From Mesotoga infera (lineage in GTDB: Bacteria > Thermotogota > Thermotogae > Petrotogales > Kosmotogaceae), in contig NZ_LS974202.1 of NCBI RefSeq assembly GCF_900157305.1, positions 868,001 through 932,000 of the forward strand: DNA of 64,000 nucleotides, given 5' to 3'. The position numbers and the translations under genes were made by a program. Under the pieces are notes generated by a model that saw only the letters and a program-made list of their open reading frames with translations, searched no databases and was not told the origin of the DNA. Positions 53,605 to 61,348 of this stretch are shown here, one piece after another. Each line of letters opens with the position of its first letter. Within the stretch, counting starts at the first letter, position 1.

Positions 53605-53913
53605 TTATCCCTCTCCGAAGACTTCGGTCCTTATTCTTCCGAGATACCAGTTGAGAGCGTCCAGGGCTATTTCGGCACCCAGTTTATTTTTCTGAGTACC
53701 GGCCATTTCGATCTTCGTACCAATTATTGAAATAAAATCGAACCCACAACCGGAACCGGCTTCCCTGAGAGAGTTTCCAATATTCTTTATCTCTTGGAAA
53801 TCATGCTCTACAATAGCCTTCTGGAGTTTCTCGGAATCGAGTTGTCTGCTAACTAGAAATCCATCTATGAGACCTTCCAGGTCGGGCTCCACAGTAACGA
53901 TGATCCTTTCCAT
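53605..53913 (-). CDS. HPt-like protein lacking the phosphorylatable histidine
   Basis: Encodes 102 residues. Residues 42-70 (IKNIGNSLREAGSGCGFDFI) match the HPt four-helix core pattern IGHxLKGxGxxxGF, but the key His is Asn47. GGAGGATAGCCA precedes the ATG. It may be a structural or regulatory relic of a phosphorelay domain. The link to PdxA-like dehydrogenase is unexplained. Confidence 0.65.
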   Translation of the reverse strand: MERIIVTVEPDLEGLIDGFLVSRQLDSEKLQKAIVEHDFQEIKNIGNSLREAGSGCGFDFISIIGTKIEMAGTQKNKLGAEIALDALNWYLGRIRTEVFGEG

Positions 53914-54154: not shown

Positions 54155-54189
54155 TAAAAAAAGTCCGGGGAAAGGTCTTTCCCCGGACT
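54155..54189 (-). terminator. Intrinsic terminator of the M14/TRAP-like operon
   Basis: AGTCCGGGGAAA and its exact complement form a 12-base stem (54162-54173 with 54178-54189), followed on the minus strand by seven T. It lies 12 bases past the deacylase stop and is the strongest terminator in the window. Confidence 0.95.
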
Positions 54190-54200
54190 CGAGAGATCAC

Positions 54201-55349
54201 TTACTGGTAATAGACATCGTCCTTGTTGGCTTTGGAAGGATCTTTGAAGAAATAACCGAGACCATTTTCAACGATCTCCTTGTATTTGGGCGCAGAAATG
54301 GTAAGACCTCTTTCGGGGTTCTTCTTCGACCACTGTACAACTATTTCCTGAATGACCGAAGAGTGTTGGCCAACCCTTCTATCCATCGAGAAACCGTTTT
54401 CATCGTAAGGAATAAATAGAAGTCCCTTTTCGGCGGCTTTGAGAACGAAGGGATCGATACCGTCCATTATCAGCTCGGGAGTTTTGGCCGCGGTTATCTG
54501 GTCCAGATGAACGCCGGGAGACTCCAGCAGGAAGGGATAGGCGTCCGACCAGTCGCCGATTTCTCTGTGAGACAGTCCTCTGAAAGCCGTTGGGGAGCGT
54601 TCGACATGGTTTTCGAACTTTTCTCTACCCTTGACGTAGAACGAGGCTCCGGTGGCGTAGCTCATCGATTTCTCCGGTACGACTATACAGTTGGTGACCG
54701 GATACATGGCCTCGGCTTCGTGGAGATCGATAACGATGTCGATCTTTTCCTTCTTTATCATCTCCATGGTGGCGTAGGTTACCTGTTCGGCATAGTATCC
54801 GTCCGGTCTTCCCGGCCAGGCTCTGTTAGTGTTTCTCGCGTCTATGTAAGACATGGCCTGACCTTCGGGATAATGTATATAGACATCGGGATCGGGCCAC
54901 TGATCGAGAGCCTGAAATCCTCTGTCGCCCATTCTGAAAGTCTTCTCTCCCCAGGGAGTTTCCATACTGAAATACAACGGGAAACCGCCTCCGGGCTGAG
55001 TGCCGAGCGAACCGCTTCTGTTGAAATGAGGGATTATGTAAACAGTTCCACGATCGACTTTCAGATTTTCAATAAGATAGAATGCCGTGAGCGCCGCAGA
55101 GGGTTCGTTCTCGTGCGTACCGGCTATTATGAGCATCTTCCCTCCCTCTTCGGAACCTTTCAATTCGAAGACGTCGGTATCGGCTATAGTTCCTTCGATG
55201 CCGCTGAAGTATCTGCTCAATTTGAAGACATCGGTTACACCCGGACCGGCAACGACCTCTTCTTTGAAGTTTCGTTGCAGGTACAGAGGAATTCCACCGG
55301 CCAGAACCACCAGCAGCAGTACCGCCAGAATAATCCATTTTCTCATCAT
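54201..55349 (-). CDS. M14-like succinylglutamate desuccinylase/aspartoacylase family protein
   Basis: Encodes 382 residues. An N-terminal membrane helix (WIILAVLLLVVLAGGIPLYL) is followed by MLIIAGTHENEPSAALTAFY with the HxxE zinc pair, VYIIPHFNRSG, NTNRAWPGRPDGYYAEQ and IVIDLHEAEAMYP. It probably hydrolyses an N-acyl amino acid or small peptide, anchored outside the membrane. It follows the 50-residue membrane protein by ten bases in the TRAP-like operon. Confidence 0.88.
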   Translation of the reverse strand: MMRKWIILAVLLLVVLAGGIPLYLQRNFKEEVVAGPGVTDVFKLSRYFSGIEGTIADTDVFELKGSEEGGKMLIIAGTHENEPSAALTAFYLIENLKVDRGTVYIIPHFNRSGSLGTQPGGGFPLYFSMETPWGEKTFRMGDRGFQALDQWPDPDVYIHYPEGQAMSYIDARNTNRAWPGRPDGYYAEQVTYATMEMIKKEKIDIVIDLHEAEAMYPVTNCIVVPEKSMSYATGASFYVKGREKFENHVERSPTAFRGLSHREIGDWSDAYPFLLESPGVHLDQITAAKTPELIMDGIDPFVLKAAEKGLLFIPYDENGFSMDRRVGQHSSVIQEIVVQWSKKNPERGLTISAPKYKEIVENGLGYFFKDPSKANKDDVYYQ

Positions 55350-55359
55350 ACAATCCCTC

Positions 55360-55512
55360 CTATTTCATTCTCAGTAATCTGAGAATGAGTGGTAGAAGGG
55401 CCAATGCGTAGAGTATTTCACTTTTTATGTCCTTGGTTTTGATGAAATTCCATATAAGCATGCCCACTACATAGGCTGTCATCACGTAATAAAGGATCAT
55501 GATAAAAGTCAT
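55360..55512 (-). CDS. 50-residue membrane protein, likely small subunit of the TRAP-like transporter
   Basis: ATG at 55512 follows GGAGGAATTGTC; stop TAG at 55362. Two hydrophobic stretches are seen: MTFIMILYYVMTAYVVGMLI at the N-terminus and EILYALALLPLILRLL near the C-terminus, split by a short basic loop (KTKDIK). It sits 12 bases after the large permease and ten bases before the deacylase, so it is co-transcribed. It could be a reduced DctQ-like subunit. It is not a known family to me. Confidence 0.8.
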   Translation of the reverse strand: MTFIMILYYVMTAYVVGMLIWNFIKTKDIKSEILYALALLPLILRLLRMK

Positions 55513-55524
55513 GACAATTCCTCC

Positions 55525-56829
55525 TTAACCCACCATCATCAGGAAGCTGAGGTTGTTGGCAAAGATAACCATTATCATTCCCACGACGGTAATAGCTATC
55601 CAGGGAACTATACACTCCTTCAGGAAGGAGCCGTAAGAGCCTTTGTAGCCGACGGTACTTACTGTCAGGCGTCCGATGAGCGCGGTCGGTGGCAATCCGT
55701 CACCGAGAGGCCACAGCAGACTCAGACCGGCCAGAACGATAACGGGATTTATGCCGTTAGAGTTCAGCATCCAGATGAGAGGAATACCGATAACCATCGC
55801 GCCTCCGTAGGTTAGCAAACCTTCGGAGATCGGTATTATGAATGGCAGGATTATCCAGACGACGATCAGAGGAGCCGTGACGATCCACATGGAGATCAAG
55901 CCTTTGACTCCGTTGAAGCTCATTATCTGAACAAGCATTCCAACGACCGCGGTGGTGGCCAGTAGAGGTGTCAATTGAGAAACCGTATCTTTGCTCACCT
56001 TGAGTATATCGACTCGCTTGTAGTTCATTATCCAGGCCACGATCGCACATATCGCAAACGACAGAGGCAGACCGAGAACGGGGAAGTCGAAGGGCCAGAT
56101 CCTCGGGGCGGCGAGCAAAAATATAAGAACCAGGAAGGGAATTCCGACGCTCCAACCGCTCAGACCTTTGGGCTCGGGAATATCCTTGAGGGCCTTTTCT
56201 TTGTCAACGACTTTGGCCTTTCTTCCTAGGAACAACACGGTGAAAAGACCGAGAATTATGATTGGTATTAAAAGCGGCATTGTAAACCCAACATAAGGTA
56301 TGGCTGTACCCGCACAGGTCATCATAGCCCATATGTTGATTGGTGGAGCGGCAGCGCTGAGACCGGCTACTATGAATATTATCGCCGATATCGTGACTTG
56401 CGAAAGTCCCATCGCACCTAAGGCGGCTGCGACGGTTCCGCCCACGACGAGAACTGAGATACTCCCTGCTCCGGTAAGGGCTCCTGGAACGAGGATTACA
56501 CACATAAGGAGAATCAACATGAGGGTCTTTTTATTATAGAAAGCTCCTACGATTTTCCTCACTATGTAGTTTGTCCCACCGGATTCTTTGATGATATTCA
56601 TGAAGATCGTTGCAAAAACAAATATCAAACCGATATCGAGATAGGTGACAGATCCTTCCGCAAGATGCCTGAAAAGGTCAAATCCGGCGCCCCCTGCTAT
56701 ACCTCCGCCAACCACTGCCAGGAACATACACATTTCCGTCGAGAACTTGAGTAACTTCCCGACCACGTACGCCCCGACCATTACTATACCTGCGATGATC
56801 GTTTGCATGTAAATTGCATCAGCAGACAA
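55525..56829 (-). CDS. TRAP large-subunit-like (DctM-type) permease
   Basis: Encodes 434 residues from TTG 56829, which follows GGGGGTAG; ATG at 56808 is the alternative. About eleven membrane helices. GAGSISVLVVGGTVAAALGA, GLSAAAPPINIWAMMTCAGT and PISEGLLTYGGAMVIG are like the DctM/ion-transporter superfamily. Substrate unknown; the neighbours (deacylase, dipeptidase) suggest an acylated amino acid or dipeptide. DUF6305 protein encoded just upstream may be the external binding component. Confidence 0.82.
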   Translation of the reverse strand: MSADAIYMQTIIAGIVMVGAYVVGKLLKFSTEMCMFLAVVGGGIAGGAGFDLFRHLAEGSVTYLDIGLIFVFATIFMNIIKESGGTNYIVRKIVGAFYNKKTLMLILLMCVILVPGALTGAGSISVLVVGGTVAAALGAMGLSQVTISAIIFIVAGLSAAAPPINIWAMMTCAGTAIPYVGFTMPLLIPIIILGLFTVLFLGRKAKVVDKEKALKDIPEPKGLSGWSVGIPFLVLIFLLAAPRIWPFDFPVLGLPLSFAICAIVAWIMNYKRVDILKVSKDTVSQLTPLLATTAVVGMLVQIMSFNGVKGLISMWIVTAPLIVVWIILPFIIPISEGLLTYGGAMVIGIPLIWMLNSNGINPVIVLAGLSLLWPLGDGLPPTALIGRLTVSTVGYKGSYGSFLKECIVPWIAITVVGMIMVIFANNLSFLMMVG

Positions 56830-56897
56830 TTTTACTACCCCCTTCAATTAAACCGGCTCTCTCACAACCCCTGTGACAACGCCGGTCAATGGGAAAA

Positions 56898-57530
56898 TCA
56901 AAGGCCGAAGATCGTGGTGAACGTATCCAGAAGGTCGAAGGCCGACTCTATTTCTATAGCCGGAACGTTTCTTGCTTTGGCTTCGTTCGAGAAGCGTCCA
57001 TCTTTGTTTGAATCGCTCGTGAACACCAATACATCTGCAGAGGGAAGAACCGTGTCGATCATGACTTCGTTCGGGCTTCCTGGAAGTCCACGTCTGATCT
57101 CCCCACCGATTGCTATTGCAACGATCTTAATACCGTTGGCCTTGGCATACTCGATAAGGCTCTTCAGTCTTGCGACTTCGGTATCCACCGAAAGACCGGA
57201 TGCACCCATGCCCTTCAGATCTGCGCCCACGACAAGAATAAGCGTCTGGAACTTCGTGCCCTTTGGATCGGGTGAGAGAGTTGTAACATGTTTGCCAATT
57301 CCGGATTTGGCATCTGCCAGTCCTACACCGGCCGCGAATTCATCTTTGGAGAGAATGTCACAATAATCGTACTTAAGACCGACTTCGTCGGCAACGTAAT
57401 TGACAGTCTCGACTTCGGCGCTCTGACCGGCAGATGTTATTGCCAGAGGAAGCATAAGCTTGACATCCGTAGTTGCCAACGCCAGTGTTACAACGGAGAT
57501 GGCAACAAGGATCAGTATAGCCTTTTTCAT
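56898..57530 (-). CDS. DUF6305 family secreted protein
   Basis: Encodes 210 residues. A signal peptide (ILILVAISVVTLALA) is followed by VKLMLPLAITSAGQSAEVET, TLILVVGADLKGMGASGLSV, GIKIVAIAIGGEIRRGLPGS and SADVLVFTSDSNKDGRF, the DUF6305 pattern. The fold looks Rossmann-like. Function unknown. It lies 68 bases before the TRAP-like permease, and a paralogue is at 60652. A role as the transporter's extracytoplasmic receptor is inference. Confidence 0.82.
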   Translation of the reverse strand: MKKAILILVAISVVTLALATTDVKLMLPLAITSAGQSAEVETVNYVADEVGLKYDYCDILSKDEFAAGVGLADAKSGIGKHVTTLSPDPKGTKFQTLILVVGADLKGMGASGLSVDTEVARLKSLIEYAKANGIKIVAIAIGGEIRRGLPGSPNEVMIDTVLPSADVLVFTSDSNKDGRFSNEAKARNVPAIEIESAFDLLDTFTTIFGL

Positions 57531-57598: not shown

Positions 57599-57639
57599 GA
57601 CAAAAAAATATAGAAGCCTGCCCCCTTATGGGGACAGGC
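57599..57639 (-). terminator. Terminator-like hairpin after the C69 dipeptidase gene
   Basis: GCCTG-x-CCCC and GGGG-x-CAGGC arms (57616-57639) lie nine bases past the dipeptidase stop. On the minus strand a T-rich tail with seven T in a row follows after about eight bases. Termination is probably partial. Confidence 0.65.
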
Positions 57640-57647
57640 AACAGTGA

Positions 57648-59312
57648 TTACTTCGCTTTGTAACCGTCCGGTCCGAAGATATGGCCGTCGGCGTATCCGA
57701 CTTCCTTGAGCCACCAGTCGGGATAACCAACAGACTTTCCAACATCGGGGATGTTGATGTAACCGTCGCGGTACTTGGTTATCAGATATTCGTTGAATTC
57801 CCATGTTTCTGCCATTACTCTGTCAGTGACATCGGCGACGTAATCTGTCAGGAATTCCTTACAGAGTTCGGGGTCCACCTCGTAAAGCTGTGCCGCAGCG
57901 GTTTCTACCGCCGACTGCATTGCGAAGAGTTTGCCTTCAGTCTTCTTCTGGAATGCCTGGATTTCCGGGTACATGTAGCTCCACTTCAGCTCGGCCCAGT
58001 TGCCCATGAAATTGAAGGCCCAGGATGCGACATCGCGATCGAATTTCTGGAGACTGCCGCTGTCATATGCGTAAGGAACATCGGTGATGCCACAGTACAT
58101 CGGAACGAGTATCGTTTCATGAGGTGCCGCTGCGCCCCACCATACCACTCCACCGACAGGATCGGGAAGCCAGTCTCTAACCTGAGACACAAACACGTAT
58201 TCACATCTGAAGATCGAGAGTGCTCTTTCCCAGCTGCCCTTGATCAGTTTGCTCGAGCCAGAATAGCGGTTAGGATTGCCGAACGGTCCGGCGGCTAGAC
58301 CCTGTGTCAGGTCGAACTCGGTCCCTTCGTAGTGGTCTCTGAAGAGGTCGATCACGTCGGCCACGGAGAGCTTCTTGTCGGGAACAACCGAGAACGGGTA
58401 AGCCTTTGTGAAGCTGTCTTCTACCCACGGAGAAAGTTCCAGGGAAGGAGCAACCCTGTCGAGAACTCTCCAGGTCCTTCTGAGACTGTAGTAGGGCATG
58501 GAGTATTCGCCGGTGCTGACGGTTGCCATCCAGTCGATAGGACCGGAGCTGGGGTCATACCAGCCGGCCGCCGTCGCGACTTCGATCAGGTTCGGGGAGA
58601 ACATTATGTCGGGATCGTTGGGATCGAGTTCCCTGATCCTGAACATGTTGGATTCGACGAAGACTTCTCCGTCGGGAACTTTCTTGGCCGCCCAGAGAGC
58701 GCTCTTCTGGTCCGGTGTCGCACAGATCTCGAAGACCCAGGCTTCCTGAGGGTCGGTTATTGTGAGAGTTTCGCCCCAGCCGTAGTAGCCGTACTCTACG
58801 GCCAGCGCGCCCATGAGCTCGATTGCCTCTCTGGCCGTCGTGCATCTCTCCATGGCTACTCTGGAAAGAGCGGCAACGTCGAAAATACACTGGCCGGCTT
58901 TGGGCTGCGCATAGACTTTGGCCGAACATGTACACTCGCCGATCGCGAGCTGGTGTTCGTTGATTACTCCATAGACTGCATCGAAGTATCCGTAGGTGTG
59001 CTCGACCTGGTCGATGTAACCAAGAGGTTCTGTCGGTGGATAGTTAGGATCATCGTAGGTCGGGCCCATGTCCTTACCCACATAACGCGGATACGGTTCG
59101 ATGAATGGATATACGGCTCTCTGTGCGCCTGGTTCATAATCCGCCGGTGGAACGTAGACATACCTGAAATCGCAGAGACCACAATCTGCGGAATGGCTGG
59201 TCATGACCGACCCATCAACCGATGCGCCCTTGGTGACGATGATGGTCGTGCAGGCCCAACCGATCGTTACGATTGCGGCAACCGCAAGCAAGACTAACAG
59301 GATCTTACGCAA
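57648..59312 (-). CDS. Secreted C69 family dipeptidase
   Basis: Encodes 554 residues. After a signal peptide (ILLVLLAVAAIVTIGWA) the mature protein would begin at Cys21 (CTTIIVTKGASVDGSVMTSH), the N-terminal nucleophile of peptidase C69/U34. GYIDQVEHTYGYFDAVYGVI and NEHQLAIGECTCSAK follow as in the family. It cleaves dipeptides outside the cell. The C-terminal 100 residues are longer than in PepD. It supplies substrates for the transporter downstream in the cluster. Confidence 0.92.
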   Translation of the reverse strand: MRKILLVLLAVAAIVTIGWACTTIIVTKGASVDGSVMTSHSADCGLCDFRYVYVPPADYEPGAQRAVYPFIEPYPRYVGKDMGPTYDDPNYPPTEPLGYIDQVEHTYGYFDAVYGVINEHQLAIGECTCSAKVYAQPKAGQCIFDVAALSRVAMERCTTAREAIELMGALAVEYGYYGWGETLTITDPQEAWVFEICATPDQKSALWAAKKVPDGEVFVESNMFRIRELDPNDPDIMFSPNLIEVATAAGWYDPSSGPIDWMATVSTGEYSMPYYSLRRTWRVLDRVAPSLELSPWVEDSFTKAYPFSVVPDKKLSVADVIDLFRDHYEGTEFDLTQGLAAGPFGNPNRYSGSSKLIKGSWERALSIFRCEYVFVSQVRDWLPDPVGGVVWWGAAAPHETILVPMYCGITDVPYAYDSGSLQKFDRDVASWAFNFMGNWAELKWSYMYPEIQAFQKKTEGKLFAMQSAVETAAAQLYEVDPELCKEFLTDYVADVTDRVMAETWEFNEYLITKYRDGYINIPDVGKSVGYPDWWLKEVGYADGHIFGPDGYKAK

Positions 59313-59372: not shown

Positions 59373-60638
59373 TTATTCAATCACAGTAAAGACAAGTAGA
59401 TCTTTTCCCACGGAATTACCCGTCTCTAAAGAAGTGGAGTATCCCGTAAAATACAGCTTTTTGTCTCCATAACAGAACGATAGTATCGCATCGTCCTTTG
59501 AGCCTCCGACTGCGAGCCTATCCAGAATTTTACCGGCGGTGTTCACCCGGATGATCCAACCGTCGGCCATTCCATGGTTTCCAACCACATCTTTATCGCT
59601 GGATGTTGAATAACCGGCTACAATGAATTCATCTTTTCCAACCTGTACAACTCCACGTGCGATGTCTGAGAAGCTTCCGCCGAAATTGTTGCTGGAGATC
59701 TCTGTTCCATCGGGTGAAATATACGCAATCCAGAAATCCTTTCCGCCGAGTCCGCTGGAGAACATCGAAATCCCCGCGTCCTGTTCTCCGACCACGACTA
59801 TGTTTCCATCGCTCGCAACTATTAAATCCGATCCCGCTTCGTACCAGAAACCTCCGTATTGATTGAACCATTGTATGATTCCGTCGCTCCCTATCTTCAA
59901 AACGGACGTTTGTTCTTCAACGTAGTTGCAACTGACGTTGCAGTCTTTGAACGCGTAGTACCCGACAACGTAAATCGAACCGTCGTCGCCTATGGCGATC
60001 CTTTTAGCGCAATCTTCGCTCCGGTAGGCCCCGGCGAGCCACTGCCCGAGCAACTCTCCGTCGCAGTTGAGCTCTATTACCCAGAAATCCTCGCCCCAGT
60101 CGTACCCTATGACATCTCCGTTATCCGATCTGGTATATCCCGCAACGAGTATATTTCCTTCGGGAGTCTCCACCACATCGTAGGCGTAGTCCTGTCCGCT
60201 TCCACCGAAGGTTTTCTGCCACTCAAGCTCGCCCGTCGAAGAAACTCTTATCACCCAGAAATCTCCCAAACCTTTGTTACCGGTTACATCTCCGTCGGAG
60301 GATTCCGTCAATCCCGCAAGCACGAAACCTCCATCCCGTGTAGTCGTAAGCGCCTGAGCAACATCGCGCTTGCTTCCACCGTAAGCCTTCCACCATATTA
60401 GTTCGAGATCTTTGTCGAACCTGGCTATGAGAAAGTCTTCCTGTCCATGACTGGAAAAGAAAGTGCCTTTCGAGGAAGTGGTGTAACCGGCTATTACGAC
60501 ACTACCGTCTGCGAGTAGAACGATATCGTTGCCCACATCGTTCCCGTCTCCGCCCACGACGACCTGATCAGAAAGTGTCAAACCGGCGCAGACCGTAACT
60601 GCAAAAAAAGCGAATAAAACTACCATGTATCTCTTCAT
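59373..60638 (-). CDS. Secreted seven-repeat beta-propeller-like protein
   Basis: Encodes 421 residues from ATG 60638 (GGGAGA upstream). Signal peptide MVVLFAFFAVTVCAGL. About seven repeats of 50 residues follow, each with a GG-x-D/G start, then DGGFVLAGLTESSDGDV- or EGNILVAGYTRSDNGDV-like strands and a DFWVIR/V strand, resembling one propeller with seven blades. No enzyme motif is seen. It sits between the C69 dipeptidase and a DUF6305 gene on the same strand, so it may bind a wall or peptide ligand. Confidence 0.75.
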   Translation of the reverse strand: MKRYMVVLFAFFAVTVCAGLTLSDQVVVGGDGNDVGNDIVLLADGSVVIAGYTTSSKGTFFSSHGQEDFLIARFDKDLELIWWKAYGGSKRDVAQALTTTRDGGFVLAGLTESSDGDVTGNKGLGDFWVIRVSSTGELEWQKTFGGSGQDYAYDVVETPEGNILVAGYTRSDNGDVIGYDWGEDFWVIELNCDGELLGQWLAGAYRSEDCAKRIAIGDDGSIYVVGYYAFKDCNVSCNYVEEQTSVLKIGSDGIIQWFNQYGGFWYEAGSDLIVASDGNIVVVGEQDAGISMFSSGLGGKDFWIAYISPDGTEISSNNFGGSFSDIARGVVQVGKDEFIVAGYSTSSDKDVVGNHGMADGWIIRVNTAGKILDRLAVGGSKDDAILSFCYGDKKLYFTGYSTSLETGNSVGKDLLVFTVIE

Positions 60639-60651
60639 CCATTTTCTCCCA

Positions 60652-61266
60652 TCAATCACAACATCTTCCCCCACCGAAGTCCCTCTCGAAAACGATCAAA
60701 AGATCCACCACGACCGAAAGTTTCAAAACGATTGGCGAACCTTCATACAAAGCGGACGCATAATTTTCTCTAGAACTACCGGCAAATATAACGGCATCTG
60801 TAAACGGAATCAATCTTCGGGCGAACTCCGCCTTGATTGAGTCATCACCGGAATCATCCACATCTATATCGATGATCATTACCAGTCCGTTTTCTTTCTT
60901 AATTTCGGCTGCCATTTCCACGACTCTGGAGATATCCCCCAGATGCCTTTCGGATCCACCACCGGCAATCACAATCAGGGTCCTGTATTGGGTGCCAGGC
61001 GTATAGAAATGGTAGAAAATATCGCCCTCGCTTTCTTTTGCCTTACCGAAACTTGCGCCCATTTTCATCTGCTCCAAAGTCGCTCCGGGAACGTAATCAC
61101 GGGCTATAAAAAGATTACTGCAGAAGTAGTTCACCGTATCTATCTCCTGGCTCTCTCCCCAGACGGTCATTAACATGGGGTCTTCCATTGGAGGTAGAAC
61201 GTCCGGCACATAGGCGAAAGAAATTGTAGTAATAAGAAAAAACAAGAAAGACAAAAAGATTTTCAA
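60652..61266 (-). CDS. DUF6305-like secreted protein, diverged paralogue
   Basis: Encodes 204 residues from TTG 61266, which follows GGAGATGG; the open frame extends upstream but lacks a site. Signal peptide IFLSFLFFLITTISFA. RTLIVIAGGGSERHLGDISR, GLVMIIDIDVDDSGDDSIKA and TDAVIFAGSSRENYASAL align with the DUF6305 protein at 56898, at low identity. It starts the propeller-dipeptidase transcript. Confidence 0.7.
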   Translation of the reverse strand: MKIFLSFLFFLITTISFAYVPDVLPPMEDPMLMTVWGESQEIDTVNYFCSNLFIARDYVPGATLEQMKMGASFGKAKESEGDIFYHFYTPGTQYRTLIVIAGGGSERHLGDISRVVEMAAEIKKENGLVMIIDIDVDDSGDDSIKAEFARRLIPFTDAVIFAGSSRENYASALYEGSPIVLKLSVVVDLLIVFERDFGGGRCCD

Positions 61267-61348
61267 AAGACCATCTCCGTTTAAAAACCAGTGTGAGTTT
61301 TGGACAGAAAGAACATACATAATTGCCGTCAGAATTACTATACTCCAA

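Follow-up and report, generated by a model that had tools for sequence, protein, structure and literature searches.

Gene organization of the cassette

The window analysed here is a stretch of 64,000 nucleotides from Mesotoga infera (G000:C1:868001-932000), taken from a single-contig Thermotogota genome of 2.97 Mb. This genome is G000 in our numbering, in which G stands for genomes and L for loci; judged by the permease, its closest named relative is a metagenome-assembled genome of the Kosmotogaceae (97% identity). The window carries a cassette of four genes encoding a secreted DUF6305 protein, a permease related to DctM of the tripartite ATP-independent periplasmic (TRAP) transporters, a membrane protein of 50 residues and a membrane-anchored zinc hydrolase. 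A transporter-like module of these four parts had been described in the original prediction, and all four open reading frames (ORFs) were found on the minus strand, flanked by two hairpins:

56898..57530, minus strand: DUF6305 protein of 210 residues (PF19823), proposed solute receptor
55525..56847, minus strand: DctM-related permease, 440 residues as listed, 434 from the probable start TTG 56829
55360..55512, minus strand: two-helix membrane protein of 50 residues, a conserved family and the proposed second membrane subunit
54201..55349, minus strand: membrane-anchored zinc hydrolase of the AstE/AspA (M14-like) group (PF24827), proposed extracytoplasmic amidohydrolase feeding the transporter
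57616..57639, minus strand: terminator-like hairpin between the dipeptidase gene and the DUF6305 gene, 10-bp stem with a U-rich tail
54161..54190, minus strand: terminator-like hairpin 3' of the hydrolase gene, 13-bp stem with a U-run

The gaps between the ORFs are 50, 12 and 10 bases, in this order. The two flanking hairpins are the richest in G-C pairs among the nine found, a number to be set beside the 7.8 that shuffled sequences yield. Judged from the sequence, the four genes are one tight minus-strand operon bounded by two terminator-like hairpins. A first helix of the secretion type is predicted in all proteins of the cassette and of the unit upstream, except the permease and the 50-residue protein.

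Permease and small membrane protein

No Pfam or NCBIfam family was matched by the window permease itself. Four of its relatives, at 30-32% identity, match PF06808 (DctM) above the cut-off and over nearly the whole model, one of them also matching TRAP_fused (1.4e-7, under the cut-off of that model). In the PDB, the sole match of a permease profile built from 16 sequences (A3) was the isethionate TRAP transporter DctMQ (9pym, E 2.8e-4, positions 13-420 of 428). These matches identify the window permease as a DctM relative, and its 11-13 hydrophobic stretches are consistent with the 12-helix large subunit of that family. A closer relative (L010, 45% identity) gave a match to DcuC only, under the cut-off. 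The listed start codon, TTG 56847, probably precedes the true one by six codons, as a GGGGGT box lies 5' of TTG 56829, from which a protein of 434 residues would be made, as in close relatives.

The 50-residue protein has two predicted hydrophobic helices (2-20 and 29-47), half the helix count of DctQ. It represents a conserved family: the 20 module copies aligned all have two hydrophobic helices and all end in LR-x4-K, which bears out the suggestion of a very small membrane subunit in the place of DctQ. Further copies outside the ORF set were recognized by reading frame in L011, L084, L094 and L129; in L129 a methionine precedes the arginine, and the sequence of L084 ends before the stop codon. 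The 50-residue protein gave no match to DctQ (PF04290), and a four-helix DctQ was found neither as a separate protein nor fused. The soluble protein matched only PF19823 in Pfam, and thus neither DctP nor TAXI was recognized in the receptor position, although the genomes were not searched for TAXI. The one DctP and one DctQ of G000 sit together at 1004-1006 kb, with DctQ at 1004.6 kb and both far from every module, while G018 and G257 carry modules and have no DctP (PF03480) or DctQ match genome-wide. With neither DctQ nor DctP among its recognizable parts, the cassette is not a canonical TRAP transporter. The name 'TRAP-like', which had been given to the whole module, suits the large subunit and not the rest.

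DUF6305 protein

The window protein matches PF19823 with an E value of 1.4e-38 (132 bits, cut-off 25), its sole Pfam match. A signal-peptide-like helix (5-23) is followed by an alpha/beta domain, which is predicted to be secreted. In the module, DUF6305 takes the place of a solute receptor, as had been proposed; ligand binding is putative. In 23 aligned copies, residues G35, Q36, G102, K106, G107, G109, E118, R121, R146, R147 and D177 are invariant. A site formed by the lysine and two of the arginines would be appropriate for a ligand bearing several carboxylates.

The predicted model is a single Rossmann-like domain, the best of five models having a predicted local distance difference test (pLDDT) score of 81.7 and a predicted template modelling (pTM) score of 0.85, with the remaining four at 52-56. 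Foldseek returned no match for this model at E 0.001 or better (top 1jxi, 2.1e-3, TM score 0.43), and the top hit of VIA-align was a glycosyltransferase with Z 8.7, near the background range stated for the tool. That no receptor fold was clearly matched does not prove the fold to be new. Searching PDB sequences with the DUF6305 profile gave a best E value of 0.038, which is at chance level. Kinship between DUF6305 and PgsW was considered and rejected (hhalign probability 8%).

Some DUF6305 genes stand in other surroundings. One lone gene of G000 (L012 7705-8349, at 1551 kb) has no transporter of the permease family nearby, and most genomes of the genus contain a counterpart. In G267 (L137 434-3723), the DUF6305 gene lies beside genes for a histidine kinase, a response regulator and an AstE/AspA hydrolase, and no permease or pgs genes were found. 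In G109, the sizes of the ORFs beside the DUF6305 gene had suggested a canonical TRAP operon, which was rejected when Pfam assigned these ORFs to purine genes and LpxK.

Zinc hydrolase

The prediction of an anchored zinc enzyme agrees with a PF24827 match of 30.4 bits (cut-off 25) and a single N-terminal helix (residues 6-24). Among 15 aligned sequences H79, E82, R176, H210 and E276 are invariant, and N175 is kept in at least 90%. These presumably represent the zinc ligands (H, E, H), the catalytic glutamate and the substrate-binding NR motif, so that the hydrolase would have the characters of the AstE/AspA group. It is probably located on the outer side of the cytoplasmic membrane. Relatives in the PDB are DoeB and 4wck/4q6m, 4wck being what we take to be Csd4. 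A Pfam scan of the window protein gave no link to the PghP family PF05908.

Recurrence of the module and its two branches

The survey covered 103 Thermotogota genomes of 38 genera and, in a wider set of 390 genomes, 287 outside the phylum. Within Thermotogota, DUF6305 was found in 18 genomes and the permease in 19. A permease gene lies within 5 kb on the same strand for 44 of the 59 DUF6305 matches (two rows below the cut-off being left out), and DUF6305 likewise accompanies 40 of the 49 permease matches, the two weakest rows (a 66-residue remnant in G000 and a G054 row with E 8.7e-4) being left out. The 15 DUF6305 matches without permease include several of a separate single-copy type of the window's genus, and others on short contigs. 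Seven of the nine permeases without DUF6305 are at or near contig ends; the other two, in G024 and G027, look like broken modules. Outside Thermotogota, the permease profile was found in 10 of the 11 genomes with DUF6305 versus none of the 20 with PgsW and no DUF6305. The neighbourhood survey called for by the original prediction thus clearly excludes a lack of association.

In 20 hand-picked cassettes, the three long proteins (DUF6305, permease and hydrolase) have correlated pairwise distances (r 0.76, 0.83 and 0.69), as expected if the modules travel whole. G000 contains three complete modules and one decayed copy at 627-634 kb. In the latter (L157 5992-12674), a start fragment of DUF6305 and an end fragment of the permease are accompanied by full-length matches to the 50-residue protein and the hydrolase and by two C69 dipeptidases. 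A scan of genome contigs returned three Thermotogota loci. Among plasmids, the permease query and the DUF6305 query each retrieved one record, the same Cetobacterium plasmid.

The permeases form two branches, which were compared in 29 contexts chosen for sufficient surrounding DNA (14 of the window branch, 15 of its sister branch; neighbours within 6 kb). The hydrolase is near 13 of 14 and 15 of 15 permeases, respectively (28 of 29 overall), and DUF6305 near 13 of 14 and 11 of 15. Genes for C69 dipeptidases accompany 11 of the 14 window-branch permeases and none of the sister branch, versus none and 13 of 15 for gamma-glutamyltransferase (GGT).

Association with poly-gamma-glutamate genes

The Cetobacterium plasmid carries in one row the genes for GGT, DUF6305, permease, a 47-residue protein, hydrolase, pgsB, pgsC and pgsW, and its GGT and pgs genes were confirmed by hidden Markov models. 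The annotation of this record names the permease 'TRAP transporter large permease subunit' and the hydrolase 'succinylglutamate desuccinylase', so the DctM kinship in itself is already known to annotators. PgsW (TIGR04332) was found in 17 of the 103 Thermotogota genomes, and DUF6305, permease and PgsW occur in the same seven of the 38 genera. Among all 390 genomes, DUF6305 is present in 29, PgsW in 47 and both in 26 (Fisher p 1.6e-24, kinship ignored); for the 287 outside Thermotogota these numbers are 11, 30 and 10 (p 3.5e-10, kinship ignored). PgsC was matched in 50 of the 390 genomes at E 1e-4, with 36 exceeding the cut-off. GGT is found in 27 of the 30 genomes with DUF6305 or the permease, versus 7 of the 20 PgsW genomes that lack the module.

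The own genome contains both the PgsB ligase and PgsC, in a group of pgs genes at 1102.8-1105.4 kb: PgsB scores 238.4 bits (cut-off 222.7), PgsW 348 (cut-off 100) and PgsC 95.9, just under 96.45. Directly adjoining pgsW in this group is a gene for an OPT-family oligopeptide transporter (L082 9465-11084); in G053 and G054 a C69 dipeptidase gene takes this place. Module and pgs genes adjoin each other in G018, G063, G064, G101, G108, G256, G257 and G294, and in G152 as judged by coordinates. A PgsW gene directly adjoins the permease gene in G257, G294 and G152, a second PgsW gene being located beside PgsC. Two PgsW genes were observed in G109, G152, G257 and G294 (L129, L143, L144, L147), one neighbouring PgsC and the other GGT or the permease; these different neighbours could point to a role of PgsW apart from polymer synthesis. 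The PgsW profile had no match in the PDB. G025 has PgsC and no PgsW, and G053 has PgsW and the permease without a DUF6305 match. A 461-residue ORF of G127 (L130 3407-4792), with no Pfam or NCBIfam match, was seen upstream of DUF6305, GGT and pgsB.

Neighbouring genes

Upstream of the cassette lies a same-strand run of three genes, given here in order:

60652..61320, minus strand: diverged second DUF6305 copy, PF19823 22.0 bits (cut-off 25), conserved lysine and double arginine absent
59373..60674, minus strand: secreted delta-60-repeat protein, TIGR02608 E 1.2e-15, 57 bits, under the cut-off of 76.5
57648..59312, minus strand: secreted C69-family dipeptidase of the adjoining unit, PF03577 E 1e-55, recurrent partner of the window's permease branch

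A diverged second DUF6305 had been placed at the start of the dipeptidase transcript. The copy is real and first in the run; its family match is weak, and that the run forms a single transcript is suggested by the spacing. Five counterparts in relatives exceed the PF19823 cut-off. In alignments, neither the lysine nor the double arginine nor the GN-DG motif is present in the second copy, which is therefore unlikely to bind the same ligand. Diverged copies without the conserved lysine and double arginine (window 60652-61320, L009 83-775 and L152 9377-10168) have a common FERDFGGGRCCD tail. On the other side of the cassette, a 102-residue protein with no Pfam or NCBIfam family match (window 53605-53913) is encoded between the hydrolase gene and pdxA, and is kept in L007.

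Proposed function and alternative explanations

The cassette is proposed to encode a TRAP-like secondary importer of three components, which would take up glutamate or gamma-glutamyl products set free outside the membrane and serve the turnover of poly-gamma-glutamate. A polymer or peptide outside the cytoplasmic membrane would be the start of the chain. From it, the anchored zinc hydrolase together with the C69 dipeptidase (window branch) or GGT (sister branch) would release a solute, for which glutamate or a short gamma-glutamyl peptide is the likeliest candidate. Secreted DUF6305 would use its conserved lysine and arginines to bind this carboxylate-rich solute and would pass it to the permease. 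The DctM-type permease, whose relatives take up carboxylates, would import it into the cytoplasm with the two-helix protein as a putative subunit in the place of DctQ, and the recovered solute would serve the turnover of the poly-gamma-glutamate presumably made by PgsB, PgsC and PgsW. The module of transporter and zinc enzyme was contained in the original prediction, the link to these proteins and to GGT was not; in view of this link, glutamate or gamma-glutamyl products become likelier substrates than generic dipeptides or N-acyl amino acids. We hold this proposal with moderate confidence, because the dipeptidase-linked window branch leaves general peptide use possible.

AstE frees glutamate from N-succinyl-glutamate, and the bond it cleaves is shaped like that of gamma-Glu-Glu. 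A literature search, with most subscription papers outside its scope, found no paper naming DUF6305 or joining the module to poly-gamma-glutamate. In the passages available from PMC4497714, PghP is described as a zinc enzyme related to carboxypeptidase A that cleaves poly-gamma-glutamate at its gamma-glutamyl links, and CapD, encoded in the cap operon, as a member of the GGT family.

Several observations weigh against the proposed importer. The window cassette is located 177 kb from the pgs genes of its own genome and does not adjoin them, and pgs genes are near only 3 of the 14 window-branch permeases (G018, G256 and G108), compared with 7 of the 15 of the sister branch. G023 has the cassette and no PgsW or PgsC match, and G267 has DUF6305 and no match to PgsW, PgsC or the permease. 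Since 20 of the 30 PgsW genomes outside the phylum are without cassette, the polymer genes do not need it. Relatedness inflates all p-values, so that the Fisher values only rank the effect, and the counts by genus and in other phyla are the better guide. DUF6305 also occurs solitarily, once in most genomes of the window's genus and in G109, G152 and G294, which have the permease elsewhere, and its model has no clear structural match to any receptor with Foldseek or VIA-align. The structure prediction of the permease from four close sequences was useless (mean pLDDT 35). Gamma-glutamyl cleavage by the hydrolase is putative, and its best PDB relatives include N-acetyl-diaminobutyrate deacetylases.

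The frequent dipeptidases and rare pgs genes of the window branch would also fit an importer for amino acids or dipeptides in general, freed by secreted peptidases, the pgs link then meaning that imported glutamate is used for the polymer; the three complete modules of the own genome likewise suggest several substrates. This explanation is possible but rather unlikely, as the strong co-occurrence with pgs genes and the role of GGT as exclusive partner of the sister branch favour gamma-glutamyl chemistry. If DUF6305 were an enzyme or regulator and the permease worked without a binding protein, the solitary DUF6305 genes would be accounted for, and also the predicted single Rossmann-like domain, whose top structural hits were kinases and nucleotide enzymes. 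The two-lobed receptors known from transport are larger than this single domain. These structural matches are weak and near the background range stated for the tool, however, and the secretion signal and the strict company of the permease make such a function improbable.

A further explanation turns the direction around: permease and small protein would help PgsB, PgsC and PgsW to export the chain, DUF6305 would hold it, and hydrolase and GGT would shorten it or link it to the cell surface, in the manner of CapD in Bacillus. PGA_cap (PgsA/CapA, PF09587) had no match at E 1e-10 in G000, nor in 14 of the 19 module-bearing Thermotogota, leaving room for another export factor, and the direct adjacency of permease and PgsW genes in three genomes would be in line with this. 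On the other hand, PGA_cap is present in 9 of the 11 module genomes outside Thermotogota, as well as in 16 of the 20 PgsW-only genomes, and the many PgsW genomes outside the phylum without the permease indicate that it is not needed for export. DctM-type carriers are moreover known as ion-driven importers, both generally and in the passages available from PMC5812351. Export or surface processing is therefore regarded as unlikely, if slightly less so than an enzymatic or regulatory DUF6305.

Comparison with known systems

The proposed importer resembles the TRAP systems (DctP/TAXI-DctQ-DctM) in that its large subunit is DctM-related over the whole length and that it too has a secreted soluble partner and a small membrane partner encoded in one operon. 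It differs in its second subunit (two helices and about 50 residues versus the four helices of DctQ), in having DUF6305 and not DctP as soluble partner, and in including a hydrolase.

With the PgsBCA/CapBCA systems, including CapD/GGT and PgsE/CapE, the cassette shares its genomic company, i.e. PgsB, PgsC and gamma-glutamyltransferase. PgsE/CapE are small, and the 50-residue protein can be likened to them in size. In contrast to these systems, the own genome has PgsW and no PGA_cap match. To our knowledge, known pgs/cap operons carry no DctM-type permease, and the literature passages available on these systems do not mention one.

Like AstE/AspA, DoeB, Csd4 and PghP, the hydrolase keeps the zinc-site residues and NR motif, in line with its PDB matches. 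Unlike them it is membrane-anchored, probably extracytoplasmic, and nearly always encoded beside the permease.

As a tentative extension, the cassette could represent a new class of receptor-dependent secondary transporters, composed of a DctM carrier, an LR-x4-K two-helix subunit and DUF6305 as a one-domain receptor with a fold novel for transport. Its two branches would be hard-wired to different outside peptidases, and with PgsB, PgsC and PgsW a closed loop would arise, in which polymer is laid down outside and then mined back as glutamate.

The proposed importer would provide a function open to test for three components that have none assigned: DUF6305, the family of membrane proteins of about 50 residues, and PgsW. 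It further suggests that a second subunit of far smaller size and another kind of receptor can suffice for a carrier of the TRAP type, a point relevant to the question what DctQ is for. It also points to a possible route of poly-gamma-glutamate recycling in bacteria of several phyla, far outside the bacilli.

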